Positions 45,601 to 63,596 of a stretch of 64,000 nucleotides of DNA are shown here, piece after piece. Location: assembly GCA_023382385.1 (NCBI GenBank), contig JAHDVH010000003.1, positions 310,001 through 374,000 on the forward strand, in the 5' to 3' direction. Origin of the DNA: a bacterium. GTDB lineage: Bacteria > Electryoneota > RPQS01. A program made the translations under genes and the position numbers. The notes beneath the pieces are model-generated. The model saw only the letters and a list, made by a program, of their open reading frames with translations. It searched no databases and was not told where the DNA came from. Numbering within the stretch: position 1 is the first letter of the stretch; every line of letters begins with the position of its first letter.

Positions 45601-45825
45601 AACCCCGAGACGAGCATCTCGTTTGACCTGGTCGAAAACAGCAGCGTTAAGCTGTCGGTTTACAATCCGGTTGGTCAGCTGGTGGCAACGCTCGTGGAAG
45701 GCTCGCTGAATTCGGGTCGTCACACGGTGCAGTTCAATGCAGCCGGGCTGCCCAGCGGTCTCTACTTCTACCGTTTGACCGTTGGTGAGACGGTTATGCA
45801 GAAGAAGATGCTGCTGCTGAAGTAA
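42634..45825 (+). CDS. Secreted VWA-domain protein with Cys-rich repeats and C-terminal sorting domain
   Basis: 1063 residues from ATG 42634, with GAGGAAAG before it and a clean signal peptide (MKRLVLMLGLVVACTGALFAA). Order: an N-terminal linker, two PPC-like beta domains (about 90-350), two tandem 40-residue Cys repeats of form GRCCY ... LGGVW-EG-SC (about 355-440), a von Willebrand A domain (about 450-640) with the metal site DVTGSM and VLITDAS, a CARDB-like beta domain (about 680-780), a Cys-rich insert, an FN3-like domain (LPAELASFSALPGNEEIQIRW) and the sorting domain NYPNPFNPE ... KKMLLLK. Probably a surface adhesin or matrix protein. Followed by a strong terminator. Confidence 0.82.
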   Translation: MKRLVLMLGLVVACTGALFAAGKTIDQTAIGQQSANNKSALDRELQRQALEAQIFAAKTQGAIPQALLAEYEQLLDDMGRLNPQHGALDQGGDNCSDAVDLGSALGNGIASGSTANAQNDFLHFAQQPPCYQGTYYTGSATAPDVTYKWTAPRTSTYTFALCGSNFDTELSLWNYTCPTHPSFPADYICGNDDALSAFTCESNGLHSVVGCIALNAGQEILVVVDGWSGSSGQYFLSIFDCDPVCYDVTLAAPGAYSGTTCEQGNDCAAFGSDDLVIAVEIPSAGLWSFAYNGIGFDPYLRIGYECCTSDICSDDDSGGGLNSLCRCVSLQPGTVYVTLEGLGNSCGEFTLSVTTDDCVGGRCCYTNPFGGPACSTTRFEECIALGGVWDEGLSCEENPCGVGRCCYYDDGEPVCESGVREDFCQFALGGVWTEGASCNTPCPATGDCGPIDLVFAVDVTGSMFQAIDNIVNELPNIIAIANTASNGDLRLGLVTFDDEVFVHHALTNNIAAVQATIAGLTSFGGFGLPEASDEALREILTGDGQCVSVGDFNVAFRAGANKIVVLITDASNGGCDDTHTPADVAYAHQRALDAQAAGVRICPVWRPLPGAEPFGIIVPVLQDYALTSAGTFSIIGFDGSGAGGAINQIVANCGQGELRLFSPGIDLRCDPNGGGITTPTFDLLVRVGNSGTETCENVMLELTSIGGDAGTVVLNSANPVALGNLLAGQSVDQLFNLTVTPDADGGQIVITATVTSDNCPSNFLQIVIDVPDCDGDCEGDSEIHFYEIDFRVPPDCICAHLCVGHPVHVYVCGEGFSPGRYPLLNIAPGCMTDGCDEECDPAQWMFSNTGWTLIGDTCWHNVIIPGTDGCICVCFDRFLPAELASFSALPGNEEIQIRWTTASETQNDHFELLRDGAVTAHVAATNSPSGSSYSFVDRGLTNGRVYTYELVSVSLTGDRQVIGSLESAPQAGAAVVSELALFQNYPNPFNPETSISFDLVENSSVKLSVYNPVGQLVATLVEGSLNSGRHTVQFNAAGLPSGLYFYRLTVGETVMQKKMLLLK

Positions 45826-46154: not shown

Positions 46155-46688
46155 ATGAAATTCAATCGAATCATTATCAGTGCCGGCATCTGCCTGGCCT
46201 TCGCCATCAGCTCCTTTGCACAGGATGAGGCAAAGACTCCGACCTATGTCGGCTCGGGTAAGTGCAAGATCTGCCATAAGGGTGAGAAGAACGGCAACAT
46301 CTACGAAACTTGGCTTGACAGCAAACATGCTAAAGCGTTGGAAACCCTTGTCGCAAAGGGCGAGCAGAACAACCCTGAATGTTTGTCCTGCCACACCACC
46401 GGCTATGGAACGGCCAGTGGCTTTGACAAAATGCCCGATCTGCATGGCATGGAAGATTTAGGCGGCGTCGGCTGCGAATCCTGTCACGGCCCGGGTTCTG
46501 AGTACAAGACCAAGAAGATTATGGAGTCCCGCGAAGCGTCGATCGCTGCCGGAATGTGGATTCCGGATGAAAATACCTGCAAGACTTGTCATAACGAAAA
46601 GTCCCCCACCTTTAAGGGCTTCAATTACGAAGAAGCATTGCAGAAGATTATCCATCACGTCCCGCCAAAGGCGGAAGCCACCGAATAA
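46155..46688 (+). CDS. Tetrahaem cytochrome c, c554-like
   Basis: 177 residues. Signal peptide ends near SSFAQ (22). Four haem-c sites: CKICH (about 37), CLSCH (75), CESCH (101) and CTKCH-type CKTCH (144). The pattern YVGSGKCKICH, WLDSKHAKALETL, PECLSCHTTGYG and GVGCESCHGPGSEY is that of the cytochrome c554 family found beside many periplasmic electron-transfer systems. It is a soluble periplasmic carrier by prediction. It precedes the Hmc-like module by 170 bases containing two hairpins, so it may be the first gene of that operon or an independent one. Confidence 0.9.
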   Translation: MKFNRIIISAGICLAFAISSFAQDEAKTPTYVGSGKCKICHKGEKNGNIYETWLDSKHAKALETLVAKGEQNNPECLSCHTTGYGTASGFDKMPDLHGMEDLGGVGCESCHGPGSEYKTKKIMESREASIAAGMWIPDENTCKTCHNEKSPTFKGFNYEEALQKIIHHVPPKAEATE

Positions 46689-46858: not shown

Positions 46859-47812
46859 ATGAAGATTAATCGTCGTAACTTCCTGAAACTTGCCGGACTT
46901 GCCACCGCTAATGTGGCCGTCGGCACGCTGCCGGGCAAAGCCGTCGCCTCCCCCGGCCACTTTACGGGTCACCCCGAACGGCGCGGCGTACTTGTGGACA
47001 CCACACAGTGCATCGGACTGAACTGCCGACGCTGTGAACTTGCCTGTGCCAAAGAGCACAACCTGCCGACGCCGGAAAAAGCTCCCGAAGATCCCACCGT
47101 CTTCGACAAGAGACGACGGACACACGCCGACCAGTTCACCGTCGTCAATCGCTTCAAGGGACAGTCGCCTGAAACCCCGATCTACGCCAAGAAGCAGTGC
47201 ATGCACTGCGATGAACCGGCGTGTGCTTCCGCGTGTCTGGTCGGCGCATTTTCCAAAACGCCAAGCGGCGCAGTCGAGTATGATGCCAGCGTCTGCATCG
47301 GCTGCCGATACTGCATGGTCGCCTGTCCCTTTGATATTCCCACGTACGAGTATTTCAGTGCACTTCACCCTCGGGTTCGCAAGTGCACTTTTTGTTTTGA
47401 ATCGCGGCTCCAGCAGGGCAAACCGCCTGCCTGTGTCGAAGCCTGTCCTCGCGAAGTCATGACGTTCGGCCGCAGGGAAGACTTGATCAAAGTCGCACGA
47501 CAAAAGATTGTCCGAAGTCCCAACCGATACGTCGATCACATCTATGGTGAACACGAAGTCGGCGGCACAAGCTGGATGTATCTCTCGTCCGTGCCGTTTG
47601 ACCAAATCGGCTTCCGCACGGATCTGGGGACCACTCCCTACCCCGAACTGACGCGCAACTACCTGTCGGCCGCGCCGCTGGTCATGGCGATTTGGCCGAC
47701 GTTCTTCCTGAGCATCTATCTGTTCACCAAACGCAAGGAGGAACTCGCCGCTGAACAGCGCCTGCTGAATCCCTCTGCGGACGGAAATCACAGAACCAAG
47801 GAGGACAAGTAA
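46859..47812 (+). CDS. Tat-exported 4x[4Fe-4S] ferredoxin-like subunit (HmcB/HybA/DsrO type)
   Basis: 317 residues. Twin-arginine signal NRRNFLKLAGL at the N-terminus. The 4Fe-4S pattern is that of DMSO-reductase-type electron-transfer subunits: CIGLNCRRCELAC (about 51-63, unusual C-x4-C-x2-C-x3-C spacing), CMHCDEPACASAC (about 117-129), CIGCRYCMVAC (about 148-158), then CTFC and CVEAC. A C-terminal membrane helix (about 272-290, PLVMAIWPTFFLSIYLF) anchors it, as in HybA and HmcB. It should pass electrons between the NrfD-like quinone subunit and the multihaem cytochrome on the periplasmic side. Overlaps the next gene as TAATG. Confidence 0.9.
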   Translation: MKINRRNFLKLAGLATANVAVGTLPGKAVASPGHFTGHPERRGVLVDTTQCIGLNCRRCELACAKEHNLPTPEKAPEDPTVFDKRRRTHADQFTVVNRFKGQSPETPIYAKKQCMHCDEPACASACLVGAFSKTPSGAVEYDASVCIGCRYCMVACPFDIPTYEYFSALHPRVRKCTFCFESRLQQGKPPACVEACPREVMTFGRREDLIKVARQKIVRSPNRYVDHIYGEHEVGGTSWMYLSSVPFDQIGFRTDLGTTPYPELTRNYLSAAPLVMAIWPTFFLSIYLFTKRKEELAAEQRLLNPSADGNHRTKEDK

Positions 47813-49050
47813 TGGCTACTGTCCTCGCTCCTCCTGCTCACCTGCGTCCTACGCCGAACTTCGTTCGTGATAAGCTGCTGCTCGGCATGACGCCGCGCGA
47901 GTATCTCAAGAGTTTGATGACTCCCGGACATTACATTGCCGCACTGATTCTGGCTGTCGGAATTCCCGTCACCTATCAACGCTTCACCGGAGGTATCGGC
48001 GCGATTTCCAACCTTACCGACGCCAATCCGTGGGGTATCTGGATCGGTATCGATGTGCTCTGCGGGGTCGCGCTGGCTGCCGGAGGATTCATCATCGGCT
48101 CCATCTACCACATCTTCGGTATGCACGAATACAAACCGCTCGTGCGTCCGGCCATACTCACGGGCTTTCTCGGCTACGCGCTCGTCGTGTTCGGTTTGAT
48201 GTTCGACTTGGGCCGCCCGTGGCGTCTCCCCTATCCGATGGTCTGGTCATTCGGCACAAGCTCAGTCATGTTTGAAGTCGGCTGGTGTGTCGCACTGTAT
48301 TTGTTCTGTCAGTTCATTGAATTCTGGCCGCCGCTCTTCGAGTGGATTGGAGCCAAACGCGCGCGTGCCTTTGCCGTCAAGCTGACGCTCGGTGCGACGG
48401 TGATGGCCGTGGTCCTTTCGACGCTGCACCAATCATCACTTGGCGCGCTCTTCCTGATTATGCCGTCCAAGCTGCATCCGCTGTGGTACAGCATGTATCT
48501 GCCGGTCTTCTTCCTGATTTCGGCAGTCTCGGGCGGAATCGGAATGATCATCTTCGAAGCCACCATGTCCCACCGCTACTTCAAGATGCAAACTGGACAT
48601 CTGAGTCATCGCGAGCTTGACAAGCTCATTCTCGGGTTGGCAAAGGGTGGTGCGCTTGTTCTTTATCTCTACTTCTGGCTCAAGATCATCGGCGTGGCGC
48701 ATGAACACCAGTGGGCATTGATTGCCACCGGATGGGGAGCGTGGTGGCTCGTGGAAGTCGTCGGCTTTATCCTGCTCCCGGCCTTCATGTTCCTGTTCGC
48801 TGTGCGCAGACTGAGTCCGACCCTCGCTCGCATTGCCGCCGTCTGGACCGTGTTGGGACTCATCCTCAACCGGGTAAACGTTTCCATCATCGCACTGAAC
48901 TGGTATGCCGAGGAACGCTACATCCCGCATTGGAAGGAAATTACCGTCACTTTGATGATTATCACAATCGGCGTGTTAGTCTTTAAGTTCATCGTGAATC
49001 GCATGCCGATTCTCCTGCAGCATCCTGATTATGCGGGCGACAGCCATTAA
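47812..49050 (+). CDS. NrfD/HybB/HmcC-type integral membrane subunit
   Basis: 412 residues with about ten predicted membrane helices. TPREYLKSLMTPGHYIAALIL, NPWGIWIGIDVLCGVALAAGGF and FDLGRPWRLPYPMVWSFG match the NrfD/PsrC family; ETTVHQSSLGALFLI-type text appears here as STLHQSSLGALFLIMP. These proteins bind quinol without haem and couple to the ferredoxin subunit. Together with the upstream ferredoxin and downstream small protein and multihaem cytochrome it reproduces the HmcB-HmcC-HmcD order. Direction of electron flow (quinol oxidation or reduction) is not determined by sequence. Confidence 0.92.
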   Translation: MATVLAPPAHLRPTPNFVRDKLLLGMTPREYLKSLMTPGHYIAALILAVGIPVTYQRFTGGIGAISNLTDANPWGIWIGIDVLCGVALAAGGFIIGSIYHIFGMHEYKPLVRPAILTGFLGYALVVFGLMFDLGRPWRLPYPMVWSFGTSSVMFEVGWCVALYLFCQFIEFWPPLFEWIGAKRARAFAVKLTLGATVMAVVLSTLHQSSLGALFLIMPSKLHPLWYSMYLPVFFLISAVSGGIGMIIFEATMSHRYFKMQTGHLSHRELDKLILGLAKGGALVLYLYFWLKIIGVAHEHQWALIATGWGAWWLVEVVGFILLPAFMFLFAVRRLSPTLARIAAVWTVLGLILNRVNVSIIALNWYAEERYIPHWKEITVTLMIITIGVLVFKFIVNRMPILLQHPDYAGDSH

Positions 49051-49217: not shown

Positions 49218-50327
49218 ATGAAATATTACATATTCTTGCTTATCGCCAGTTTTACGCTTGTGCTCTCCAGCGAGCGCGCCGAAGCCGTCTCGCAGCAACC
49301 CGGCGCGTCCAATGGCTGCTCGCAATGTCACGTCTGCCGGACACCTACGGCGGACGACCCTTGCCTCCGTATCTGCCCGCGACCGCGCGTCACCCCGCAA
49401 GATCTGAAGATGGGGCCGGATGAAGTGCTCATCAACGAACTCGAGAATGAGTACGAAGCCGTTCGTTTTTCGCATCGCCTGCATGCGGAAATGACCGCGA
49501 TGGATCGCGGATGTCAGGATTGTCACCACTTCCAGCAGGTCGGCGGCATCACCGCCTGCAAAGATTGTCATCCCCCGCACATCGCCGACGAAAATCTCGA
49601 ACAGCCGGGCCTGAAAGGTGCCTATCATCGGCAATGTCTTGGCTGCCATCAGGATTGGAGTCACGACACGTCCTGCGAAATCTGCCACCTGAAGAAGGGA
49701 CAAGAGACGGCGACGCATCCGCTGCCTAAGCGTTCGCCCGGAAGCAAATTCGCCGGACTCGTCGAACCTGAAAAGAAGGTCTGGCATTCGTCCTATGGCG
49801 GCGGAACGATTGTCACGCTGTTTCACAGAAATCACACCGAGAAATACGGCATCTCGTGTGCATCGTGCCATCATGCTGAAGGCTGCGCGTCGTGTCATTC
49901 GAAATCCGAGCAAACCACCACGTCCATTCGCCACAGCGAAGAAGCTTTGCACGGCATCTGCAATTCCTGTCACTCGGAGATGAGCTGCAATCAGTGTCAC
50001 ATGAAAACGGAAGCCGTTGAGTTTTCTCACGACCGGACGGGGTGGCCGCTCAAGTTCTACCACGAACGACTGTCGTGCCGCCGGTGTCACGGCAATCCGA
50101 ATCACTTTACGAAACCGTCGCGCGACTGCAATAGTTGCCACAAGGACTGGGCCGTCGGCACGTTCAAACACGCGCACACCGGCTACGGATTGAACGACAC
50201 GCATGCTGAAATCTCCTGCGAGGAATGCCACGTCGGGAAGAATTTCGCGGTCAAACCGACCTGCAATTCGTGTCACGACAACGACATTACATATCCTGCA
50301 TCGCAACCCGGTGGAAGATTGAGATAA
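49218..50327 (+). CDS. 13-haem cytochrome c (HmcA/class III-like)
   Basis: 369 residues from ATG 49218 (MKYYIFLLIASF signal peptide ending near AEAVS); the frame extends to 49152 without a signal. Thirteen CXXCH sites: CSQCH, CQDCH, CKDCH, CLGCH, CEICH, CASCH twice, CNSCH, CNQCH, CRRCH, CNSCH, CEECH, CNSCH. Several His residues sit one turn before them (FSHRLH, YHRQ), as in cytochrome c3-type bis-His haems. Just after the first site come extra cysteines (CHVCRTPTADDPCLRIC) not explained by haem binding. Periplasmic electron acceptor or donor for the membrane complex. No paralogy to the next two genes outside the haem motifs. Confidence 0.9.
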   Translation: MKYYIFLLIASFTLVLSSERAEAVSQQPGASNGCSQCHVCRTPTADDPCLRICPRPRVTPQDLKMGPDEVLINELENEYEAVRFSHRLHAEMTAMDRGCQDCHHFQQVGGITACKDCHPPHIADENLEQPGLKGAYHRQCLGCHQDWSHDTSCEICHLKKGQETATHPLPKRSPGSKFAGLVEPEKKVWHSSYGGGTIVTLFHRNHTEKYGISCASCHHAEGCASCHSKSEQTTTSIRHSEEALHGICNSCHSEMSCNQCHMKTEAVEFSHDRTGWPLKFYHERLSCRRCHGNPNHFTKPSRDCNSCHKDWAVGTFKHAHTGYGLNDTHAEISCEECHVGKNFAVKPTCNSCHDNDITYPASQPGGRLR

Positions 50328-50331
50328 TTCC

Positions 50332-52812
50332 ATGAAACGAGCACTTCTTACTCTCCTGCTTGTTGCCTGTTTCGGCACGCTGGCTTACGCAAACAAAGAC
50401 AAAGACGCGGCCTGCATCGAGTGTCACTCCGACGCGACGCTGACACGGACGAATCGAGACGGTTCCATCGTGTCGCTGGCCGTGACCCCGGACTCGCTCG
50501 CTCGCTCGAAACACGCTTCGCTCGCCTGTGTGGACTGCCACGCCGATTTGAAGAACTTTGATGACTGGCCGCACGCCGAACGACTGGCAGCCGTGAGCTG
50601 CGCAAGCTGTCACAAGGAAGCTGCGACGGAAGTTGCCATGGGCGGACATGAAGGTGTCTTGAAGTGCGCATCATGTCATGGAACCCATAACATATTGGAT
50701 ACCAAAGACCCGCGGTCAATGGTCTCAAAAGAGAAAATAGATCGCAGCTGCGAGCAGTGCCATAACAGGATGCATCCCCCTCATCGCGGACGTACCACCG
50801 TCTATGAAAGCTACGACGTCGGCATTCATGGAAGGCTCGCAAAACTTGGAAAACAGGGTCTGCCCTCCTGCACGGATTGCCACTCGTCGCACGCCGTGCA
50901 CGCGGAAGATCGCCAACCCGAAAAGCTTGAACAATCCTGTTTGAACTGCCACAGTGAGATCGTCGCGGAATTCAAGAAGTCGGTGCACGGTCAGTTCCGC
51001 GATGGCAGAAATCTCTCGCACTGTTTCGATTGTCACGGTGAACATCGCAGCCGCGCGCCATCAGACTCTACCTTGCGCGTGACAAACGAGTCACCGGCCG
51101 AGGCGACCTGCGGCGCCTGCCACGAAGAGTCCGTGAGGCTTTACAATCAGAGCTTGCATGCGTATGCGCTGCAGAGCGGTTCTCCACGCGCACCGCGCTG
51201 TGAAAGCTGTCACGGCGCACATAACATCCGCAAAGTGGACGACCCCGAATCGCCGATGCACCGCTCAAAACAGGTCGAGACATGCGCAAAGTGTCATAGC
51301 CAGATCGGCATCGCGCTCGATCCTGAAGTGCGGCTGCCGCGATCTTTCGAAAACTATCTCGAAAGCACGCACGGCAAACTTCTGAAGCAGGGCAACGAGA
51401 ACGTTCCTGTCTGCATCGATTGTCACGGCGGTCACGCGGTGCTTGGCAGCACGAACCCGCTGTCCACAATTACGCTGACTAACATTCACAAGACCTGCGG
51501 ACAGTGCCATCCGAAAGAACAGCAGCTTTACGAAGTTTCCATTCACTACCGCGCACTGATGAGCGGCATCACGGACAGCCCGACGTGCACAGGATGTCAT
51601 GGTGAGCACTTGATGGTTTCGCCGAAGGATCCGAAGAGCAAGGTCAGTCACGCGCGAATCGCGGCGGAAACGTGCGGAAAGTGTCACGAAAACCCCGATA
51701 TCATTCGCAAGTATGGATTGGCCCCGGACGTGGTCTCAACATATACAGACAGTTATCACGGTCTGGCCACGCGGGCAAGAAACCGGAAAACTCCCTCGTG
51801 TGCAGATTGCCACGGTGCGCACGACGTGAGAACTGCGGCAGACCCGCTGTCCTCCATTCATGAAGCCAACGTCGTGCAGACCTGCGCGACTTGCCATCCC
51901 CGAGCGGATGCGAAGTTCGCGGCATCTTATACTCACCGTGCCTTGCAGCCGCGCGAGGGCGGGGCTCAATGGTGGATTGCGCGGATCTATTGGATTCTGA
52001 TTTTTGCGGTTATCGGCGGAATGGTCCTGCACAACCTGATCATCCTGAACTATCATATGATCAAGGCGCGCGAGCATCAAACCAGCGGTCCGAAAGTCAC
52101 GAGATTTGACCGGCATCAGATCATTCAACACTTGGTCCTCTCGTTCACGTTTATTCTGCTCGCAATAACGGGATTTGCTCTGAAGTATCCGGACGCGTGG
52201 TGGGTCAGGATGCTCGCTTCGATCGGCTTCAGCGAAGGCATTCGCAGTGTCACGCATCGCGTCATGGCAGTAGGTTTGATCGCGTGCTCGATCTATCACA
52301 TCGTCTATCTGTTCTGGACAAGGCGCGGCCGTGAAGAGTGGCAGGCACTGATACCGGCTAAGACGGATGTCAGCGACTTGACCGAGAATCTCTCCTATCA
52401 CATGCAGAAGCGCAAGGATCCGCCGAAGTTTGATCGTTATGATTACTCACAGAAGGCGGAGTATTGGGCGCTGATCTGGGGAACAATCCTGATGATTGCT
52501 ACTGGATTTGTGCTGTGGTTCCCCGCAGAACTTTCTCCGATTCTTCCGGCGTGGGCGATTCCGGTCAGCCAGACCATCCACCTCTATGAAGCATGGCTCG
52601 CGACGCTTGCGATCGTTGTGTGGCACTTCTTCTTCGTCATCTTCCATCCCGAGGAGTATCCCATGAGCTGGACATGGTTGACGGGCAAGATTCCGCTGCA
52701 TCTTGTCAAGCATCGTCACGGCCGCTGGTACGAGAAAATTACAGCCGGAAAGACCGACGTTGAGACGAGCGAGACTGAGGCGCCCAAGCCAACTGAACCC
52801 GCATCAGAATAA
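50332..52812 (+). CDS. 17-haem cytochrome c fused to membrane cytochrome b domain
   Basis: 826 residues. Signal peptide MKRALLTLLLVACFGTLAYA. Residues 25-530 carry 17 CXXCH sites (from CIECH to CATCH) in repeating CxxCHG-(T/A/E)H units. Residues 545-780 hold five hydrophobic spans of the b561/NarI/FdnI type with His in facing helices (IIQHLVLSFTF, THRVMAVGLIACSIYH, TIHLYEAWLATLAIVVWHFF), able to bind two haems b. The C-terminus is a charged cytoplasmic tail. The closest known architecture is Geobacter CbcL, which joins about nine haem-c sites to a b domain; this one has nearly twice as many. Predicted inner-membrane quinol oxidase with a periplasmic wire. Confidence 0.9.
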   Translation: MKRALLTLLLVACFGTLAYANKDKDAACIECHSDATLTRTNRDGSIVSLAVTPDSLARSKHASLACVDCHADLKNFDDWPHAERLAAVSCASCHKEAATEVAMGGHEGVLKCASCHGTHNILDTKDPRSMVSKEKIDRSCEQCHNRMHPPHRGRTTVYESYDVGIHGRLAKLGKQGLPSCTDCHSSHAVHAEDRQPEKLEQSCLNCHSEIVAEFKKSVHGQFRDGRNLSHCFDCHGEHRSRAPSDSTLRVTNESPAEATCGACHEESVRLYNQSLHAYALQSGSPRAPRCESCHGAHNIRKVDDPESPMHRSKQVETCAKCHSQIGIALDPEVRLPRSFENYLESTHGKLLKQGNENVPVCIDCHGGHAVLGSTNPLSTITLTNIHKTCGQCHPKEQQLYEVSIHYRALMSGITDSPTCTGCHGEHLMVSPKDPKSKVSHARIAAETCGKCHENPDIIRKYGLAPDVVSTYTDSYHGLATRARNRKTPSCADCHGAHDVRTAADPLSSIHEANVVQTCATCHPRADAKFAASYTHRALQPREGGAQWWIARIYWILIFAVIGGMVLHNLIILNYHMIKAREHQTSGPKVTRFDRHQIIQHLVLSFTFILLAITGFALKYPDAWWVRMLASIGFSEGIRSVTHRVMAVGLIACSIYHIVYLFWTRRGREEWQALIPAKTDVSDLTENLSYHMQKRKDPPKFDRYDYSQKAEYWALIWGTILMIATGFVLWFPAELSPILPAWAIPVSQTIHLYEAWLATLAIVVWHFFFVIFHPEEYPMSWTWLTGKIPLHLVKHRHGRWYEKITAGKTDVETSETEAPKPTEPASE

Positions 52813-52823
52813 ACGACAAGCTC

Positions 52824-55322
52824 ATGAGACTACTTGCCAGACCCATTCCCGTCCTGCTCTTCATGCTGTCGCTGGTTTGCCTCGTGGCACGGGCGCAGAC
52901 CAACAACGACTGCATGGAGTGCCATAGCGATCCGACGCTGACGATGGAGACGCTGACCGGCTCCAAGTCACTCACCGTGACGACTGACAGCCTGAAGCGT
53001 TCCGTTCATGCAGGTCTCGATTGCATCGACTGCCACGGCGATCTGAAGGGTGCGGACTTTCCGCACGAGCGACCACGCCATGTGAACTGCGGCGAGTGTC
53101 ACGAAGCTGCGATGAAGACGTTCATGGCAGGCTTCTTCAATAAGCTGAATGCCATGGGCTTCCGTGGAGTGCCGGAGTGTTCGGACTGTCACGGCACGCA
53201 CAACATTACCGACCATGCGGATTCGCGCAAGGTTTGCGGCATCTGCCACCGCGCAGAACTCGCGGCGTTTGACAAGAGTGTGCATGCGCGGACGGGCAAG
53301 GCGGCCAAGGCGGAAATGAGCTGCACGTCCTGTCACGATCCGCACTTCAAATCCAAACGCGACAGTATGACGGTGGCGCAGTGGCACGAATACAATATTC
53401 GCGGCTGCATGGAGTGCCACAAGAACGAATCACGTAACTATATTGCCAGTCAGCATTATCAGAAACTGAAAGGCGGAAATCTTGACGCGCCGAACTGCGT
53501 AACCTGTCACGGAGAGCATGGAATATTGTCTCCCGAAGATCCGGCTTCGCATACCTCGGTTGAACGTCTTGACGCGCTCTGCGCGACCTGTCACAAGGGC
53601 TATGAAGAGTCGCTGCACCGCAAGGACAGCGTGGACGCGCGGTTGATGACCTGCGTGGCCTGCCACACCGGACATCAGACTCAAATGGTGCATGCGGTAG
53701 GCGGAATCTTCCGCGAAGAGCTGCCGGCCACCTGCAACCGATGTCACGAGAGTGAGCGCCATGCCAAGGAGTTCCTCGCGCACGGACGGATCATGAGCGC
53801 ATCGGAAACGGGCGAACTGGCGAATTGCACACAGTGCCACGTCTACCACTTCAATCGCAAGATAGAGGGACAAAAGCCGATTTCGAACCTTCGCATGCAG
53901 TGCGAGAACTGTCATGCCAAGGAATATCAGGAATACATGCGGTCAGAGCACGGAATAGCCTATGCCAAGGGGCATACGGAGGCTCCGACGTGCGTGACGT
54001 GTCACGGAGAGAAGGACATCAAGAAAGTCAGCGACGACATGCGGCCGCGGCATATCATTGATATGTGCAGCAAGTGTCACGGCAATCGCGAATTCGCGCT
54101 GAAATTCCAGCTTAATCCCGAAGTCGTGCGGTCTTATTCCCGCACATATCACGGACAGGCCTACAACCTCGGATATCAGGGTGACGAATTTGCGACGTGT
54201 GTGAACTGTCACGGCAATCACGACATTCGTTCACAGAATGATCCGGGTTCTTTGGTCAGCCGTGAGAAGATTGTGCAGACGTGCGCACGCTGTCACAAGG
54301 ACGCGAACGAGAATTTTGTGCAGTTTCTCTCGCACTACGATCCTCACGGCGGGTCGCTCGGGCCGACTTCACCTCAGAGAAAGGTGAGTCGCGCCGAGAA
54401 GTTCATGACGTCGCTGCTGCTGTTCGTGTTCGGATTCTTCGGGATTCACACGGTGCTTTGGTTGATCAGAGGATTTGCGGAGGGTCGTCCGAAGCGAACG
54501 CCGGAAGCGATGCGGAAGTGGGTGCGAAGATTTTCGCCGTGGCAGCGGACTTTGCACATCTCGCTGGCCACGAGTTTTCTGGTGCAGGCGATGACGGGCT
54601 TGCCGCTGAAGTTCTCGCACAGCGTGGCCGCATACTGGATCACGAGCAATGTGATGGATCTGCGGACGATGGCGCTCACGCATCGCATCGGTGCGGTGAT
54701 CATGATCGCGACGTTCGTGCTGCACATCTTGAGTCTATTGACTGCGGCCTTCATTCAGCGCAAGCGCGGAATGTTCTACGGTGAGCATTCGATGACACCG
54801 CGCCTGCAGGACGCGAAGGACATGTTCAACCACTTCAAGTGGTTCCTCTGGCTCGGTCCGAAGCCGAAATTCGGCAAATTCACCTACTGGGAGAAGTTCG
54901 ACTACTTCGCAGTATTCTGGGGTGTGATCATCATTGGTTCGAGCGGGTTCATTCTGTGGTTCCCGGAGTATTTTACGAAGCTATTGCCGGGCTGGATGAT
55001 CAATCTGGCGCACATCGTCCACAGCGAGGAGGCGTTGCTGGCAACGGCGTTTATCTTCACGGTGCACTTCTTCAACGGGCATCTGAGACCTTCCAAGTTC
55101 CCGTTTGACGACGTGATTCTGACGGGCCGCGAGTCCACCGAAGAGATGGAGCGCGAGCGGCCGCGCGAAATGGCAGAACTCGTTGGTGAAGACAAACTTG
55201 ACAAGCATGTGGTTCCGCCGATGAAGCGGTGGCACAAGATCCTACTGACTATCTGGGGATGGAGCGCATTTATCACGGGACTTGTGCTGCTCGTGTTTAT
55301 CCTGTATAGTTTGTTCGGATAG
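52824..55322 (+). CDS. 17-haem cytochrome c fused to membrane cytochrome b domain (paralogue)
   Basis: 832 residues, 11 bases after its paralogue. Signal peptide ends near VARAQ. Seventeen CXXCH sites again (CMECH to CARCH, residues 30-490), then five membrane spans (about 535-790) with His in RTLHISLATSFLVQAM, THRIGAVIMIATFVLH, NLAHIVHSEEALLATAFIFTVHFF. The two genes share the opening CxECHSD-TLT and the order of haem units, so they arose by duplication, but the sequences have diverged strongly and extra Lys/Arg-rich loops differ. A second quinol-oxidising wire, possibly tuned to another potential. A terminator follows 25 bases after the stop. Confidence 0.9.
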   Translation: MRLLARPIPVLLFMLSLVCLVARAQTNNDCMECHSDPTLTMETLTGSKSLTVTTDSLKRSVHAGLDCIDCHGDLKGADFPHERPRHVNCGECHEAAMKTFMAGFFNKLNAMGFRGVPECSDCHGTHNITDHADSRKVCGICHRAELAAFDKSVHARTGKAAKAEMSCTSCHDPHFKSKRDSMTVAQWHEYNIRGCMECHKNESRNYIASQHYQKLKGGNLDAPNCVTCHGEHGILSPEDPASHTSVERLDALCATCHKGYEESLHRKDSVDARLMTCVACHTGHQTQMVHAVGGIFREELPATCNRCHESERHAKEFLAHGRIMSASETGELANCTQCHVYHFNRKIEGQKPISNLRMQCENCHAKEYQEYMRSEHGIAYAKGHTEAPTCVTCHGEKDIKKVSDDMRPRHIIDMCSKCHGNREFALKFQLNPEVVRSYSRTYHGQAYNLGYQGDEFATCVNCHGNHDIRSQNDPGSLVSREKIVQTCARCHKDANENFVQFLSHYDPHGGSLGPTSPQRKVSRAEKFMTSLLLFVFGFFGIHTVLWLIRGFAEGRPKRTPEAMRKWVRRFSPWQRTLHISLATSFLVQAMTGLPLKFSHSVAAYWITSNVMDLRTMALTHRIGAVIMIATFVLHILSLLTAAFIQRKRGMFYGEHSMTPRLQDAKDMFNHFKWFLWLGPKPKFGKFTYWEKFDYFAVFWGVIIIGSSGFILWFPEYFTKLLPGWMINLAHIVHSEEALLATAFIFTVHFFNGHLRPSKFPFDDVILTGRESTEEMERERPREMAELVGEDKLDKHVVPPMKRWHKILLTIWGWSAFITGLVLLVFILYSLFG

Positions 55323-56002: not shown

Positions 56003-56938
56003 TTACTGGAAGAAGATGTTTACGACACCATTGACATGCAGCGTATCGCCCGGCAGGAAGATAATCTGATTTGCGTCAAAGTAGTTGGAGTTCGGATCCA
56101 CGTTGTGATGACACAAATGACACTGCGGAATTGCGGGATGCGTCGGACTGGCCGGCGGCACCTGATGACAGGAGCGACAGTTGTTAAGAGTCTGCCCCGT
56201 GCCCCACGTCACGGGAACCAGAGGATCCCCGCCGCGGGCGTTGGAATGACAGTAGGTGGCGCAGTTGCTTTGATTCGTATACGTCGCGGGATATCCGTTA
56301 GTAGTTGATATCCGCGCATCGTCGAAGCGCACGTCCGCAGGCAGCGGGCCGATGTGATCCAATCCACGAACGCGATTGTGGCATTCGGTGCAGGAATAGC
56401 GCGTGTGCGCATAATGAGCACCGGGGTTACGGTCACCGAGCGGATTCTGCGCCGAAGGCGGCATGCCGTGACAGGTGCTGCACGACGCCGGACCTGAGTT
56501 CTGCGTGTGGCAGGTGCGGCAGCTTGCCTCTGTGCGGCCACCTGCGAAATCGACACCGTGACATGCCTGACAGTCTCGGATCGTCTGCCACTCCATTGCG
56601 CGAATCTCTGCGGCATGTCCCTGCGCGAAGTCGCCCTGATGCGGATACGAGTGACATTCGTAGCACCCGGTCTGCTGCGCCGAGATCGGCGACGGATCGG
56701 GACGCTCACTGGCCGCAGGATCAAAGGGCAGGATGTTGTGACAGCCTGCGCAGCTTTGTCCCTGACTGCCCATCGCAGCCTGACCGTGCCATTCGGGGCT
56801 ATGCACATCCATCCATCCGGTGGGATGCGTCTTGTAGCTTGACGTCACGCGGTCTTCGCTGCAGGAGAGCACGACAACGGCAATCACCGCAATACTGAGC
56901 AGCGCGAAGAGCGCTGACCTTTTGGAATTAGTTTGCAT
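56003..56938 (-). CDS. 9-haem outer-membrane lipoprotein cytochrome c
   Basis: 311 residues starting inside the 3' end of the previous gene (11-base overlap). Signal helix with lipobox VVLSC near residue 26. Eight CXXCH sites (CAGCH, CYECH, CQACH, CRTCH, CSTCH, CTECH, CRSCH, CHLCH) plus one CX3CH (CATYCHS), a spacing variant akin to those in surface cytochromes of Geobacter. The pattern CHGMPPSAQNP, GAHYAHTRYSCTECH and PVTWGTGQTLNNCRSCH is that of the outer-surface GSU-type multihaem family. As the last gene after barrel and periplasmic cytochrome it takes the place of the OmcB-type surface cytochrome. A beta-strand C-terminus ends VNIFFQ. Confidence 0.88.
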   Translation of the reverse strand: MQTNSKRSALFALLSIAVIAVVVLSCSEDRVTSSYKTHPTGWMDVHSPEWHGQAAMGSQGQSCAGCHNILPFDPAASERPDPSPISAQQTGCYECHSYPHQGDFAQGHAAEIRAMEWQTIRDCQACHGVDFAGGRTEASCRTCHTQNSGPASCSTCHGMPPSAQNPLGDRNPGAHYAHTRYSCTECHNRVRGLDHIGPLPADVRFDDARISTTNGYPATYTNQSNCATYCHSNARGGDPLVPVTWGTGQTLNNCRSCHQVPPASPTHPAIPQCHLCHHNVDPNSNYFDANQIIFLPGDTLHVNGVVNIFFQ

Positions 56939-57836
56939 GGCACCTCACGCAGGTTGGTTCGCGACGCGGAGTGTCATGACAGGACATACAGCTTTCGAGA
57001 TCGAACTCAGCGGCTTCGGCATGCCGTCCGCCGGTCGCAGTCAGGAAACCCGGGCGGAAGTGGTCGGCGGGCAGAATGTTCATCTGCGCGTGACAGTCCA
57101 CACAGAAGCTGCGCTGCTCGTGGCACGTGCCGCACCGGAAGTCGGACAGATGCGCATCGTGGCCGTGACGACTTAAGTAGTTTTTCGGATGCGGGTTGAA
57201 GACGGCGTCGCCCTGATGACAGGACTGGCAATCGAGCTTCGAGCCGCTGATGTGACACATCGAGCAATTTGCGTTGGCAGCGGCAGCTTCAATGCCGTGC
57301 CTTTGATCCCACATGACGGCGTGATCGTCGGGAACGAGTTTCTCGCCGGGCAGGTGACACGTGTTGCATTCCATCGCGACGGCACGCGTGACGTGGCAGT
57401 CCATGCACTCGGACATCGTCGGGAAGCGTCCGCTCTGTTTTGCGGAGATCGGTTCATCGAGATTGTTGTGACAAGCCGTGCATGCGAGCTTGGCATTACT
57501 CAGATGACGCTGATGGCCGAAGCCTGGGCTGTAATCGGAGATCACTTTGAGGATGAATCCATCGTAAGGTTCACCGAGCGCGATGCCCTTACCCGCCAAG
57601 TCGTTGTGCTCGTGACAATCGGCACAGGCCGACCACTTGGGCATCAGATTGTCCGTGCCCGCCCTGCTGGTTTCAACTCCGACGTGACAGGCCGAGCACT
57701 CGAGTCCCTGTTCGATGTGCACGGCGTGGCTGAAGGCAGGCGGTGCCGCGCGTTCAGGCTTGGCCACCGCGAATCTGCCGACGATAAAGACCACGATAAC
57801 GGCGCAACTCAAGATCAGGAAGATGAATCGTTTCAT
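56928..57836 (-). CDS. 11-haem periplasmic cytochrome c
   Basis: 302 residues from ATG 57836 with GGGAGGTG upstream; it overlaps the barrel gene stop as ATGA. The N-terminal hydrophobic segment (about 4-24) is a signal peptide or uncleaved anchor. Eleven CXXCH sites: CSACH, CADCH, CTACH, CMDCH, CNTCH, CSMCH, CQSCH, CGTCH, CVDCH, CMSCH, CVRCH, with distal His residues in AFSHAVH, GFGHQRHL and HGHDAHLSDF as in cytochrome c7/c3 modules. In the porin-cytochrome model it is the periplasm-side plug that feeds the barrel. No lipobox. Confidence 0.9.
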   Translation of the reverse strand: MKRFIFLILSCAVIVVFIVGRFAVAKPERAAPPAFSHAVHIEQGLECSACHVGVETSRAGTDNLMPKWSACADCHEHNDLAGKGIALGEPYDGFILKVISDYSPGFGHQRHLSNAKLACTACHNNLDEPISAKQSGRFPTMSECMDCHVTRAVAMECNTCHLPGEKLVPDDHAVMWDQRHGIEAAAANANCSMCHISGSKLDCQSCHQGDAVFNPHPKNYLSRHGHDAHLSDFRCGTCHEQRSFCVDCHAQMNILPADHFRPGFLTATGGRHAEAAEFDLESCMSCHDTPRREPTCVRCHAN

Positions 57837-59077
57837 GACACACCTCCCAGCATGCGGCGGAAGCTTGTCGTCAGATGGAAGAGCGCGCGCCAATCCTCAC
57901 TGCGCAGCGGATCTTTCAAATGCTCAATCCTTGCTCCGATCGACAACATGCGTTGCGGCGACCACGAGAGACCGCCGTAGATGACTTGTGCTTCGGTATT
58001 GGGACGAATCTCGCTATTCGAACCGCGAGAGTAATCGAACCCGGCCATCCCTTCAAACTCCCGGTAGAGATAACGCGCCTGACCGTAGAAGCCGTCCATG
58101 TCGCCGTCTCCCGCGGAGAGCCAATGCGTGTAGCCGACTTCGGCTTCGGGGATGCCGACGCCGCAGCGAGCTTTGTAGAGCATGTCGTCTTCGGAAAACA
58201 CCAGATAGCCCATACCCGTAGCGTAGATGCCCCGGTTCTTACAGAAAGTCCACTGCGCGCCGCCGCGAGCGGAGGTGGTTTTGGATTCTTCCAAGAACAT
58301 CGCGAAGAAGGAGTCTTCAAAGATACGCGGGGTTTGCGTTCGGACATCGGCGGACACCAGCAGTTTGGTCATGGCCTGCCAATAGGCCGTCAGCTGCGCG
58401 GTTTCGATAGACGACTGCATGAGGTTCATGTGCAAGCGGCCACGCAGAGTCACGTCATCGTGAGGTTTGCCCGAAGCGTCGAGACCTGCGCCGCTAAACA
58501 GGAGGTCACCGTCTCTGCCGACATAGTAATAGGACAGACCGAGACGAGTTCCCTGAATGCGTGTGCGCAGATTGACGCCCGCAGCCATTCCCTGATCGTC
58601 ATTCTCACCATCAAGCCTCAAGGATGAAGCGAGTCGATATCCAACATAGACGCGCGCATCGGTCCTGCGGTTGAACGTGAAGCTACTCCAGAGACCTGTG
58701 ACATTCCCGCGACCGACACCTTCCGTAATCCACTGTTGTCCGCCGCGGATTTCCCACGGGGAATCGGAGGGTTTCCAAATCAGCAGTGCCCGACTGACGC
58801 GCACGGACGCCGAGCTATCGGCGTAGCCGTTCTGATACTCCGCATAGCCGCGCAATGTGCTTTCGAATGACCACGCGCCGCCTCCGCCAAAGCGGTGGAC
58901 ATTGAGACTGAGCAGCGGCACAACCTGCACACGATCCACGGAGTCGTCACGAACGTACGACCAGAGTCCGAAACGTCCGGAGACGGAGGCCGCTCGCGCG
59001 GCCTCCGTACTCACAAACGTCAAGGCAAGTGAGATCGTCAGGAGGAGAGTGCCCTGCCGAGATATTATGAATCGCAT
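57833..59077 (-). CDS. Outer-membrane beta-barrel, candidate porin of a porin-cytochrome conduit
   Basis: 414 residues. Signal peptide ends near ARAASVSG (30). The mature chain alternates amphipathic strands and short turns throughout: SGRFGLWSYVRDD, WSFESTLRGYAEYQNG, VSRALLIWKPSDSPWEIRGGQQWI, ARVYVGYRLASSLRL, GLSYYYVGRDGDLLF, LSIGARIEHLKDPL, ALFHLTTSFRRM. About 18-20 strands fit a barrel of the MtrB/OmbB size class, though shorter than MtrB. Two Cys (FCKNRG, ARCGVG) could form a disulfide. No sequence motif for MtrB is visible; the assignment rests on topology and on the two cytochrome genes translationally coupled downstream. Confidence 0.78.
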   Translation of the reverse strand: MRFIISRQGTLLLTISLALTFVSTEAARAASVSGRFGLWSYVRDDSVDRVQVVPLLSLNVHRFGGGGAWSFESTLRGYAEYQNGYADSSASVRVSRALLIWKPSDSPWEIRGGQQWITEGVGRGNVTGLWSSFTFNRRTDARVYVGYRLASSLRLDGENDDQGMAAGVNLRTRIQGTRLGLSYYYVGRDGDLLFSGAGLDASGKPHDDVTLRGRLHMNLMQSSIETAQLTAYWQAMTKLLVSADVRTQTPRIFEDSFFAMFLEESKTTSARGGAQWTFCKNRGIYATGMGYLVFSEDDMLYKARCGVGIPEAEVGYTHWLSAGDGDMDGFYGQARYLYREFEGMAGFDYSRGSNSEIRPNTEAQVIYGGLSWSPQRMLSIGARIEHLKDPLRSEDWRALFHLTTSFRRMLGGVS

Positions 59078-59124: not shown

Positions 59125-60843
59125 TTACTCTGTCCAGGCAGCCATCTTGTTTGAATCCGGAGACGTTATGGCGGCACCACTTGCGTGCAGATAGTCAATC
59201 GCGTTGATCAGCAGCGAGCGCGCATACGGGTAGTTGTGGACGCCCATCGAGCCTTCGTTAGTCACGAAGTACCAAGCGTAGCCGGCTTCGCGCTGGACAC
59301 GTGTGGAATTGCTCGCCAAGAAGTTCGGGGAGGTGCCGTTGTTCGGAAGCAGATTGAACAGCGAATCTCTCAGAGCGGCAATTTCCGTACGACGGCCGTG
59401 ATAGTCGAAGTCGGCGGGAGTCGCGTGGCAGGTATTGCAGGCCTGCAGATTCGGTGCAAAGCTGTGTCCGTGCAACGGACCGCCGGGCTGACCGAACGGA
59501 ATCACGTAGATGTGGCACTTGACGCACATGTCTTCAAGCGTGCTTTCACCAATCACAACATCGGGCTGGTGCGGCGATTCACGATTGTAGGTGTAGCCCG
59601 GGATTTCATAGGAGCCGTAGCCAACGACCATGTCGGCCTGACAGCTTCCATGCGGGCCGGGGCGCGCGTTTCCGTTGTTGATTTGGCCGAGGACATTGGC
59701 TTCAGTGCGGCGCGCGTGGTGGCACTGGCCGCAGAGCTGGCCTTTGCCGTAGCTGGGAATGCCCATCGCCTCATTGGGAATCTCGAAGCCTTCGGGATGA
59801 TCCGGTCCGCCGTAGATGATGTCGAACGGTGCGAGAGCACGCAGATAGCTGGGGTTGTTTTCGGCATCGTGCGAGTGCACATCATGGCAAGTTGCACACG
59901 TGACCTGATAGTGTTCTTCCGGCAACTCACGCGTTGCCCATTCGGCGTCCCAAAGCTTAATGAAGCCTTCGTTCGTATGGCAGTCCATACATCCGGTGCG
60001 CGCGAATTCAGTATTAAACTCTTCGAGGCCTCCGGCATTCGCAATCGCATGGCCGTGACCGGATTCCATGTATTCTTCGTTCTGGCTGTGGCAACGATTG
60101 CAGGCGTCACCCGTCAGAGCCTTGTGGATGTCCGGTGCATGTCCTGCGAACTGCGGACCCTGTGGAGAGTGGCAGGCTTCGCATTGCACGTTATGCAGCA
60201 TCGCAGACGGGAAGTCGTCAAAGCCGCCGTTGTCAATACCGGGGGTTGCGATGGAGCCGTCGAAGTTCACGATGTCGTCGTAGCCCGTGACGTGGCACTG
60301 CACGCAATACGGGTTGTTCGTGACATTGCTCGTGACCAGCGTTTCCCAAGCATTCGCGTGGTGAGTGGTCGACCAGCCGTCTACGTAAGCGGCGTGGCAG
60401 TGGCTGCAGCGATTGGCGTTGTCACCTAAGAAGCTCGGGAAGACAGCGGGGACGTAGGTGTTTACACCGACAGTAACCGTCGCAGTCGCGCTGCCGTCGT
60501 TGTCGGTTACGGTCACTGAGACCTGATACAATCCGATTTCCCGAGGCGGAGAGTAATTCGTTACGGCCATCGTCGGAGTTGCGAGTGTGCCGGTCGCGGC
60601 ACTCCACTGATAGGTCATCGGATCGCCGTTCGGATCGTAGGCACTGACGAACAGCACGGTGCTTTCGCCGGTACCTACCGAATCGGGTGCAGCGACAATA
60701 GCGGTAATAATAGGTGCGGAGTCAGGGTTAAGACCTGCAGGACCCGCAGGACCCTGGTCTCCTTCGCAGCCCATGAAAGCGACGGTCACAACCATGACAC
60801 TGACGAGGAGAAATACGGCTGGATGTAATTTTTTTCGATACAT
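59125..60843 (-). CDS. 9-haem lipoprotein cytochrome c with PKD/Ig-like domain
   Basis: 572 residues. Lipobox VAFMGC near residue 26, then a short collagen-like GPAGPAG stub, then a PKD/cadherin-like beta domain (about 40-130: STVLFVSAYDPNGDPMTYQW, YQVSVTVTDNDGSATATVTV). Nine CXXCH sites follow (CSHCH, CVQCH, CEACH, CNRCH, CMDCH, CATCH, CGQCH, CVKCH, CNTCH) in a c554/NrfA-like multihaem domain with HHANAWETL, and a 100-residue haem-free C-terminus. Probably surface-exposed, the PKD domain acting as a stalk or contact site. Located 47 bases upstream of the barrel gene. Confidence 0.88.
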   Translation of the reverse strand: MYRKKLHPAVFLLVSVMVVTVAFMGCEGDQGPAGPAGLNPDSAPIITAIVAAPDSVGTGESTVLFVSAYDPNGDPMTYQWSAATGTLATPTMAVTNYSPPREIGLYQVSVTVTDNDGSATATVTVGVNTYVPAVFPSFLGDNANRCSHCHAAYVDGWSTTHHANAWETLVTSNVTNNPYCVQCHVTGYDDIVNFDGSIATPGIDNGGFDDFPSAMLHNVQCEACHSPQGPQFAGHAPDIHKALTGDACNRCHSQNEEYMESGHGHAIANAGGLEEFNTEFARTGCMDCHTNEGFIKLWDAEWATRELPEEHYQVTCATCHDVHSHDAENNPSYLRALAPFDIIYGGPDHPEGFEIPNEAMGIPSYGKGQLCGQCHHARRTEANVLGQINNGNARPGPHGSCQADMVVGYGSYEIPGYTYNRESPHQPDVVIGESTLEDMCVKCHIYVIPFGQPGGPLHGHSFAPNLQACNTCHATPADFDYHGRRTEIAALRDSLFNLLPNNGTSPNFLASNSTRVQREAGYAWYFVTNEGSMGVHNYPYARSLLINAIDYLHASGAAITSPDSNKMAAWTE

Positions 60844-61353: not shown

Positions 61354-61662
61354 TTAGTGTCCCGTGGCGCGGTGGTCTCGAATGAAGCGCATGATCTCAT
61401 CACGTTCGAAAAGAATGACTTTACGTGATAAGCGCACACATTTCAAGCGATCTTCACGCACCCAACGCATAATTGTGGTACGATGTACACGGCCGAGCAT
61501 TTCGGCAGCTTCGGACAGAGTTAGTAGTCCCTGCGGTCCTTCTCCCGGCGCACGCGGCGCGGTCCCACCGTCGGCCCGGGTCACCTTAGCAACGCGAGTT
61601 CGCGGTGCTGTGTTCATGGCTTCTCCTTTCGCGGCAGTCTTCATTGGTTTTCGAGTACTCAT
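61354..61662 (-). CDS. Excisionase/MerR-type HTH DNA-binding protein
   Basis: 102 residues from the ATG at 61662, which overlaps the cytochrome stop as ATGA. An ATG at 61617 with AAGGAG 6 bases upstream would give 87 residues and may be the main start. Residues 1-42 are basic and disordered (RADGGTAPRAPGEGP). The HTH_17 domain (about 45-97) reads LLTLSEAAEMLGRVHRTTIMRWVREDRLKCVRLSRKVI with a C-terminal FERDEIMRFI helix. Such proteins act as excisionases or as small BldC-like regulators. No integrase is near, so regulation of the flanking cytochrome genes is the better guess. Confidence 0.82.
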   Translation of the reverse strand: MSTRKPMKTAAKGEAMNTAPRTRVAKVTRADGGTAPRAPGEGPQGLLTLSEAAEMLGRVHRTTIMRWVREDRLKCVRLSRKVILFERDEIMRFIRDHRATGH

Positions 61663-63596
61663 TGGGCTGCTCCAAGCGATTCATACCACCGCTTGAATAG
61701 TTCTGGGTTATGAGCGGTACCGCTTCCGTCTTTCTTCAGCAGGTCCGCCAATTGTTGGTATTTTCGATAAGGTTCACTTCCGGCACGGTAAGCTGACATT
61801 GCTTTCTGCACGTTGCGTGCAATTTCCTGTGCATCGGACTTCCACATTTTCAACGTGTCGGCAGTGTTCTCGTCGTGACACGCGATGCAAGACGGCAAAA
61901 CGTCGCGTGAAACATGAGTCCCGCTTACGGCATGGCAGTCCGTACAAACGATTTCGAGGTCCATTTTAAATGACGGCTTCGCGCCCGCGAATTCAGGAAC
62001 GTTGCCGGCATACACAGCCGCTTGCGTCGTATGACACGTCTTGCAATCTGTCTTCGCCAGTGCAACGGACTCATGGTGGCAGGCGTTGCACTGGTTGCTC
62101 GACATTTGAATCGCGCCGTGACGGTCCGTCCGTTCCGACACGTGGCAGGCTGTACAGTCACCAGCGCGCGAATGTTTGCTATGGTTAAAGAGCTTGCCGT
62201 CATAGGCCACCACAGCGTTGGCCGCGCCCGGGTGACAGACTGCGCAGGCGTGCCCGGTCGCCGCAGGTGAGCCGGTGATGCGCGCGGTGAGCACGTCCAC
62301 CAATTCCGGATTGTGCAACGGATTTCCCCGCCTGTACACATCAATCGCCGCCCGAATCGTGTCTGCTTCCGCAGGACTCAGTGTATGAAGCTTTGCTTCG
62401 AGGTCGCGCAAGCCCTGGGCAATCGTCACTTCCCAACGCGGCCAGAGTCTGTCGAACTCCGCGTCATGACAAGGCGTGCAGGAGGGCGGCTCAGGCTTGC
62501 CGCGAATCGTGTGCACATCCCCTGTGTGACAGGACGTGCAGGACATTCCGGCACTTGCCATAGACGACGGAGAAGGCGGAATGCCGGGCAACTCGCCGCG
62601 CCAAACTTTTTCGATGGCGTTATCCGGTTTGCCGTGGCACTGCCCGCAGGTCCGTTCCTGACTGGCAAACGCGACGGCTTCCTTGCCGTGCCTGATTTGA
62701 ATGTGACAAGCCGTGCATTCCACTTTACGATCGGTCACGTGCATCTGATGAACGAATTCGTGATCATCGTAGCGCTCGATGTGAGCGACCTGCGCGTGAC
62801 AGGAATTGCAGCGTTCGCGCGGGACAAAACCGTCGCCTGCAATTTCCGAAACGTGGCAGCTTGAACAATCAATCTTGCGGGCAAGCATCTCGGTATGGTC
62901 GTAGCTCGTGTCCGCGGCGGCCGGTCCGGTCGGGGGATTGTGACAAATCGTGCATGTGGCGAGCGCAGTCACCTGTCCCAGGGAATCCGGCTTGAAGTGG
63001 CACAGGAAACACGTGGACTCGTTGACCGATATGTGCTCGCCTTGAACGATGTTTGCGTGGCACGATGTGCAGCGCAACTGCCGACCGCGCCGGACATTCT
63101 CGAGATGCGGCTTGTGGTCAAACATCACACCCCGAAAACTCTCGGTGCTCTGCAGCAAGCGAGTGTCATGACAACCGGAACGCAGACAGCTCCTGTCATC
63201 GATTTCCGCCCAAGGCTTTGAGCGCTTATACAGTCCCGTCATATAATTGGTGACCATCGAGATGGCCAAGAACTTCGAGTGAATCGTTCCTTCCAACCCG
63301 GGCGGAATATGGCACTCCGTGCAGGTAACCATACTATGCGTTGATGTTTCCCACGCATCGAAGTAGGGAATCATCACATGACACGACTTACAGAAGTTCG
63401 GCTGCGACGTGACTTTGACAAAGAACAACAAAGAAAACAGAATGACCGCGGCAGAGGCAAACAACACCAAGCCGATGCGTCGCGGTCCGAATTCCATCAA
63501 TCGCTTCCAGCCAACGCCAAAAAGCCAGAAAGGAAGTTTGATCGTCTCCCAGCAGGCGATGAAGAATTCGTGCAGAAGGAACTTGAACTTGGACAC
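61659..63596 (-). CDS. 18-haem NapC/NirT-type membrane cytochrome c
   Basis: 645 residues from a GTG without a strong ribosome site; ATG near residue 34 (MEFGPRRIG) is an alternative. One membrane helix (about 40-60) followed at once by FCKSCHVMIPYFDAWETSTH and CTECHIPPG, the NapC/NrfH signature of menaquinol oxidases. Seventeen CXXCH sites and one CX4CH (CLRSGCH, third position) are spread over the chain, from CKSCH to CIACH. The NapC domain covers about 45-130; the rest is a much longer wire than the 4-haem NapC. In function it may parallel Geobacter ImcH. First gene of the minus-strand cluster and coupled to the HTH gene. Confidence 0.9.
   Translation of the reverse strand: MSKFKFLLHEFFIACWETIKLPFWLFGVGWKRLMEFGPRRIGLVLFASAAVILFSLLFFVKVTSQPNFCKSCHVMIPYFDAWETSTHSMVTCTECHIPPGLEGTIHSKFLAISMVTNYMTGLYKRSKPWAEIDDRSCLRSGCHDTRLLQSTESFRGVMFDHKPHLENVRRGRQLRCTSCHANIVQGEHISVNESTCFLCHFKPDSLGQVTALATCTICHNPPTGPAAADTSYDHTEMLARKIDCSSCHVSEIAGDGFVPRERCNSCHAQVAHIERYDDHEFVHQMHVTDRKVECTACHIQIRHGKEAVAFASQERTCGQCHGKPDNAIEKVWRGELPGIPPSPSSMASAGMSCTSCHTGDVHTIRGKPEPPSCTPCHDAEFDRLWPRWEVTIAQGLRDLEAKLHTLSPAEADTIRAAIDVYRRGNPLHNPELVDVLTARITGSPAATGHACAVCHPGAANAVVAYDGKLFNHSKHSRAGDCTACHVSERTDRHGAIQMSSNQCNACHHESVALAKTDCKTCHTTQAAVYAGNVPEFAGAKPSFKMDLEIVCTDCHAVSGTHVSRDVLPSCIACHDENTADTLKMWKSDAQEIARNVQKAMSAYRAGSEPYRKYQQLADLLKKDGSGTAHNPELFKRWYESLGAAQ

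Follow-up and report, generated by a model that had tools for sequence, protein, structure and literature searches.

Three overlapping genes on the minus strand of the window, the whole stretch of 64,000 nucleotides analysed here, very probably encode a conduit in which a barrel encloses a cytochrome wire and which is a divergent branch of the superfamily of Geobacter OmbB-OmaB-OmcB and ExtB/ExtE. The first codes for a 414-aa barrel-like outer-membrane protein (57833..59077), placed by homology, as a divergent member, in the superfamily of OmbB/ExtB/ExtE barrels. Its stop codon shares the sequence ATGA with the start codon of the next gene (start 57836), giving a 4-base overlap. This second gene (56928..57836) encodes a 302-aa exported periplasmic cytochrome c with 11 CXXCH motifs, carrying an export signal and no lipobox, and made of an N-terminal c7-type half and a C-terminal six-haem conduit module. 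It overlaps by 11 bases (56928-56938) the gene of a 311-aa lipoprotein cytochrome c (56003..56938) that has the lipobox VVVLSC (Cys26), an HPTGW motif after it, eight CXXCH and one atypical CX3CH motif (CATYCH), nine haems in all provided that the atypical site binds one. The earlier note had described a 414-residue barrel gene with 11-haem and 9-haem cytochromes joined by overlaps of 4 and 11 bases, and all are present as ORFs at these coordinates, the nine being eight CXXCH plus one CX3CH. The ombB-omaB-omcB order that it proposed for the conduit is borne out by gene order, export signal, lipobox and conservation.

Pcc clusters are found in six phyla. Their barrels are predicted to have 18-22 strands, their periplasmic cytochromes carry 5-14 haems and their outer cytochromes 1-15 haems, atypical motifs included; electron transfer by the Geobacter Pcc is seen in proteoliposomes (Shi et al. 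2014, PMC4245776). The triad has a barrel homologous to Pcc barrels by reciprocal profiles with negative reversed controls, an adjacent exported periplasmic cytochrome of 302 aa within the 5-14 haem range, and the 311-aa protein as outer-membrane lipoprotein cytochrome. A porin-cytochrome conduit composed of barrel, periplasmic cytochrome and surface lipoprotein cytochrome is the best reading of the locus, with good support from its anatomy and its conservation. The counts of 11 and 9 haems, which had been put forward as a sign of novelty, lie inside the published ranges (PMC4245776), so that this argument fails.

The order of the three genes is shared with Geobacter OmbB-OmaB-OmcB (PMC4245776), to which the barrel is homologous by profile; the periplasmic cytochromes of both carry the di-haem signature described below, and atypical CX3CH-type haem motifs are also known in that family (PMC4245776). 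Unlike in OmbB-OmaB-OmcB, the periplasmic protein has 11 haems instead of 8, with an extra c7-type N-terminal half, and the outer cytochrome 9 instead of 12. Profile homology of the barrel extends to Geobacter ExtABCD and ExtEFG (PMC6148476), where the pentahaem gene after the Ext barrel also has the signature. That gene encodes a five-haem lipoprotein, and ExtA is a separate 12-haem protein encoded upstream of the Ext barrel, whereas the barrel here is followed by a single 11-haem non-lipidated protein. By their descriptions only, two further systems are similar. The Pcc periplasmic cytochromes of Anaeromyxobacter, Kuenenia and Ignavibacterium are of similar size with 12-14 haems, but in Anaeromyxobacter and Kuenenia, unlike here, there is no gene for an outer-membrane cytochrome (PMC4245776). 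OetABI of syntrophic sulfate reducers is a cassette that likewise encodes a barrel, an outer lipoprotein cytochrome and a periplasmic cytochrome (PMC10553843).

The product of 57833-59077 gives no family match in Pfam or NCBIfam, and PDB searches with its sequence or with the barrel profile return nothing. An alternating pattern is found in it with 27 peaks, against 21.4 +/- 2.3 in shuffles, from which the number of strands is not countable; a single-sequence AlphaFold model (pLDDT 30) was discarded. Its barrel nature is deduced from homology to Geobacter conduit barrels together with the above-shuffle alternating pattern, not from a structure model. A search of viral contigs for further barrels found none. 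Shewanella MtrCAB combines a barrel sheath, an internal multihaem wire and an outer lipoprotein cytochrome. The triad follows the same design principle, but its barrel has no match at E<=1 to PF11854 (MtrB/PioB) or the NCBIfam equivalent, and PF11854 is absent from the whole source genome (2.9 Mb, 7 contigs). As to an MtrA/DmsE-type decahaem partner, the 302-aa protein has 11 haems and no DmsE-family match, and MtrA is not among the matches listed in a PDB search with the module profile.

Profile A1, built from 13 barrels of the phylum, identifies barrel homologues in 27 of 39 phylum genomes. The barrel-cytochrome pair is kept in order in relatives ranging from the same genus (66% identity) to the same phylum (about 19-22%), and the gene after the barrel codes for a multihaem cytochrome wherever the contig extends far enough, mostly with 11-12 haems and with 8-9 in a few genera. 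The overlap between the two genes is usually 4 bases. Most phylum loci have another cytochrome after the barrel's partner; by a simple rule, a lipobox is absent from the first in every phylum member and usually present in the second. The conserved order from genus to phylum and the typical 4-base overlaps indicate that the pairing is more than chance. The triad could still be an ordinary outer-membrane porin beside soluble periplasmic cytochromes with which it does not interact. We consider this highly improbable: barrel and C-terminal module are present together in the same 27 of the 39 genomes and absent together from the same 12, the 4-base overlap is conserved, and outside the phylum barrel relatives almost always adjoin a multihaem cytochrome.

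The source genome has a second, more divergent barrel of 558 aa (L070:2692-8359; G000:C2 near 364 kb), encoded after 20-haem and 31-haem cytochromes. This trio, found also in a sister genome (L071), may be another conduit, perhaps OmcK/OmcL-like.

Outside the phylum, profile A1 matches barrels in 38 of the genomes sampled from other phyla, and in almost all of the loci read a multihaem cytochrome directly adjoins the barrel. Geobacteraceae genomes were reached by a scan with a joint query of a PpcA sequence and a piece of the barrel; a search with the NF040886 (ExtKL) model, aimed at Geobacter genomes, gave no match over the cut-off. Eight Geobacteraceae genomes have 2-5 barrel matches each to profile A1 (E below 0.001), all of them adjoining multihaem cytochromes in ombB-omaB-, extABC- or extEF-like order. 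These genes were classified by context, not by locus tag, into three kinds. In the OmbB-like kind a 403-aa barrel is followed by an 8-haem protein and a lipoprotein cytochrome, in the ExtB-like kind a 12-haem protein precedes the barrel and a 5-haem one follows it, and in the ExtE-like kind a 5-haem protein and then a lipoprotein cytochrome come after the barrel. In group-against-group searches, the profile of the window's own group finds ExtB at 2e-9, ExtE-like barrels at 5e-8 and OmbB at 6e-7. Conversely, the OmbB profile finds the own group at 3e-6 and the ExtB profile at 4e-12, and the profile of a bridging group (OUT12) reaches the own group at 4e-22 and OmbB at 7e-25. Reversed sequences give no significant match (best E=18 for the own-group profile) and parity-preserving shuffles almost none to the barrel profiles. 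These matches argue for a distant common ancestry of the OmbB-, ExtB- and ExtE-like barrels and those of the phylum.

The earlier note had seen no MtrB or OmbB signature in the barrel and had proposed an independent conduit family. The first statement holds for MtrB, given the lack of a PF11854 match, and not for OmbB, as OmbB-like barrels are detected by profiles in both directions; the HMM comparison that the note had proposed matches OmbB, ExtB and ExtE-like barrels and leaves MtrB unmatched. The OmbB kinship escapes the eye, pairwise identity being so low (about 17% when aligned by profile) that profiles from relatives are needed to find it. An independent family converged on the OmbB-OmaB-OmcB layout would accord with this very low identity to Geobacter barrels, with the empty Pfam, NCBIfam and PDB searches, and with a tree of 78 barrels in which the window's order forms a firm, distinct clade and deep branches are poorly supported. 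Conduit families are also called non-homologous (several of them; PMC6148476) or evolutionarily independent (PMC7399161) in the literature. Against it stand the reciprocal profile matches to Geobacteraceae barrels, the bridging groups, the negative reversed controls, and a partner-specific cytochrome module and signature held in common. Profiles link the OmbB-, ExtB- and ExtE-like barrels, and the C-terminal module is common to OmaB-like and ExtC/ExtF-like proteins; independent origin was rejected on the profile evidence and we regard it as improbable.

The more interesting by-product of the analysis is this module of the partner cytochrome with its signature. According to a 2026 study, sequence homology is a misleading guide among Geobacter multihaem cytochromes (PMC12977616), and adjacency and negative sets were used for that reason. 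The conserved part of the 302-aa cytochrome is its C-terminal six-haem half (56928..57359, minus strand), common to cytochromes beside conduit barrels in other phyla and in Geobacteraceae. When the cytochrome profile A2 is run on Geobacteraceae, its N-terminal half matches many c7-type polyhaem proteins and its C-terminal half genes of barrel clusters. Profile A4, made of the C-terminal half alone, places the immediate downstream neighbour of the barrel ahead of other cytochromes within the Geobacteraceae loci retrieved. All but one of its matches at E<=1e-3 in the eight Geobacteraceae genomes fall within barrel clusters; the exception, on a separate contig (G393:C34), is consistent with, though no proof of, a cluster truncated at the end of its contig. 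Twenty loci of other phyla have a module match and no or only a distant A1 barrel; a barrel-sized ORF lies immediately upstream in 16, of which 13 match the barrel profile below 1e-3 and one carries four haem motifs, and is lacking at that position in the other 4. With CXXCH masked, the module profile recovers 13 of 50 partner cytochromes and none of 81 others. It finds none of the Geobacter OmaB and pentahaem proteins, so that their link to the module rests on haem spacing and signature.

The signature, H-x(2,4)-[FWY]-x(2,4)-H-x(2,3)-[AS]-x(4,9)-CXXCH-x(2,10)-CXXCH, was written from alignments and occurs in two copies in the 302-aa protein, at residues 172-207 (57216..57323, minus strand; HAVMWDQRHGIEAAAANANCSMCHISGSKLDCQSCH) and 216-249 (57090..57191, minus strand; HPKNYLSRHGHDAHLSDFRCGTCHEQRSFCVDCH). 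It is present in 74/74 barrel-partner cytochromes and in 0/204 other multihaem ORFs (0/153 in the same loci and 0/51 in other, mostly Geobacteraceae, loci), figures to be read knowing that it was drafted after viewing part of the test sequences, was not frozen beforehand, and that most loci were collected via the barrel. Haem-preserving shuffles contain it at a rate of 1.3%. ExtA was tried as the 11-haem counterpart and rejected: the ExtA-like genes upstream of ExtB have no signature and are not among the module matches listed.

Two loci depart from the usual arrangement. A 552-aa ORF (L236:1382-3600), followed by a 7-haem module cytochrome, combines four haem motifs with a stretch that the barrel profile matches at E 5e-9, and is possibly a cytochrome-barrel fusion. 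A 22-haem cytochrome with a module match of E 1e-52 (L237:2728-4347) has no barrel-like gene adjoining and is an exception to the adjacency rule.

A broader hypothesis, to which we give even odds, is that barrel and signature-bearing cytochrome constitute one ancient pan-bacterial core from which the OmbB-, ExtB- and ExtE-type conduits and those of the phylum would all descend. The module would be the wire in the barrel, the number of haems outside it would have been freely extended, and the phylum would have added the c7-type arm. This runs against the published view that Geobacter conduits share no homology.

The triad is surrounded by genes of other redox proteins. Upstream on the minus strand, and part of the same gene set, a 572-aa lipoprotein with a PKD domain and 9 haems (59125..60843) is a probable surface partner. 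It is preceded by a 102-aa helix-turn-helix (HTH_17) protein (61354..61662, minus strand), kept in two relatives between the NapC-like gene and the conduit, and by this 645-aa NapC/NirT-anchored cytochrome with 17 CXXCH (61659..63596, minus strand), a probable quinol-side entry point. A convergent set on the plus strand comprises a 177-aa tetrahaem c554-type cytochrome (46155..46688), with homologues immediately 3' of the triad in many relatives, a 317-aa 4Fe-4S dicluster protein (46859..47812), a 412-aa NrfD/HmcC-like membrane protein (47812..49050), a 13-haem cytochrome (49218..50327) and two 17-haem cytochromes fused to a b561-type membrane domain (50332..52812 and 52824..55322), the second convergent with the conduit operon, likewise in locus L015. 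Against HmcC the NrfD-like protein scores 512 bits (cut-off 550), which gives the plus-strand set a likeness to an Hmc-type membrane complex. Near the triad in 25 phylum loci, many of which stop at contig edges, scoring by size and haem count finds a 4-haem gene in 14, a gene of the size of the b561 fusion in 9, of the PKD-domain 9-haem protein in 8 and of the NapC-like 17-haem cytochrome in 6.

Other observations concern the surroundings of the triad and of its relatives. A 1138-aa cysteine-rich secreted protein (42409-45825) has a C-terminus that by eye resembles a type IX secretion sorting domain. In one relative, CcsA-type and ResB-type cytochrome c maturation genes lie directly 3' of the triad (L021:12795-15794). 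A 9-10-haem cytochrome and a lipoprotein are encoded next to or near the conduit in four loci (L016:8621-10764, L056:10602-12786, L060:11405-13538 and L074:8032-10494). The L016 lipoprotein, beside a related barrel, has rhodanese domains in Pfam, recalling Geobacter ExtH; no rhodanese lipoprotein (ExtI-type partner) was identified within the window.

The locus has the layout to be expected if these proteins formed a chain linking the quinone pool with the cell surface. We privilege a model in which the barrel lumen would hold the periplasmic multihaem cytochrome, whose C-terminal six-haem module could be the ancestral part fitting the barrel. The N-terminal c7-type half would be a periplasmic extension meeting the inner-membrane quinol oxidoreductases encoded next door (the NapC-like 17-haem, 17-haem/b561 and FeS/NrfD proteins). 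Electrons would run along the haem chain of the periplasmic cytochrome, reach the outward-facing lipoprotein cytochrome and go on to an extracellular partner or mineral. A real conduit could also work mainly inward or serve a surface enzyme or partner cell, in electron uptake, syntrophy or reduction of a soluble acceptor, in place of mineral reduction. Direction is not readable from sequence, the PKD-domain 9-haem lipoprotein is encoded upstream, and some bacteria with Pcc clusters reduce no solid Fe(III)/Mn(IV) oxides (PMC4245776). The adjoining NapC-like and b561-fused cytochromes, however, resemble quinol-oxidising entry points and suit outward flow, although such enzymes are reversible; we hold an inward or partner-serving role to be a real possibility, at somewhat less than even chances.

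Whichever way its electrons would flow, the triad extends the Pcc conduits by a phylum-wide, divergent lineage, in a locus with candidate parts for a path between quinone pool and cell surface. The signature provides a cheap marker of the barrel's partner cytochrome and may help where homology assigns multihaem cytochromes poorly (PMC12977616). With it, the common ancestry of Geobacter conduits becomes testable.
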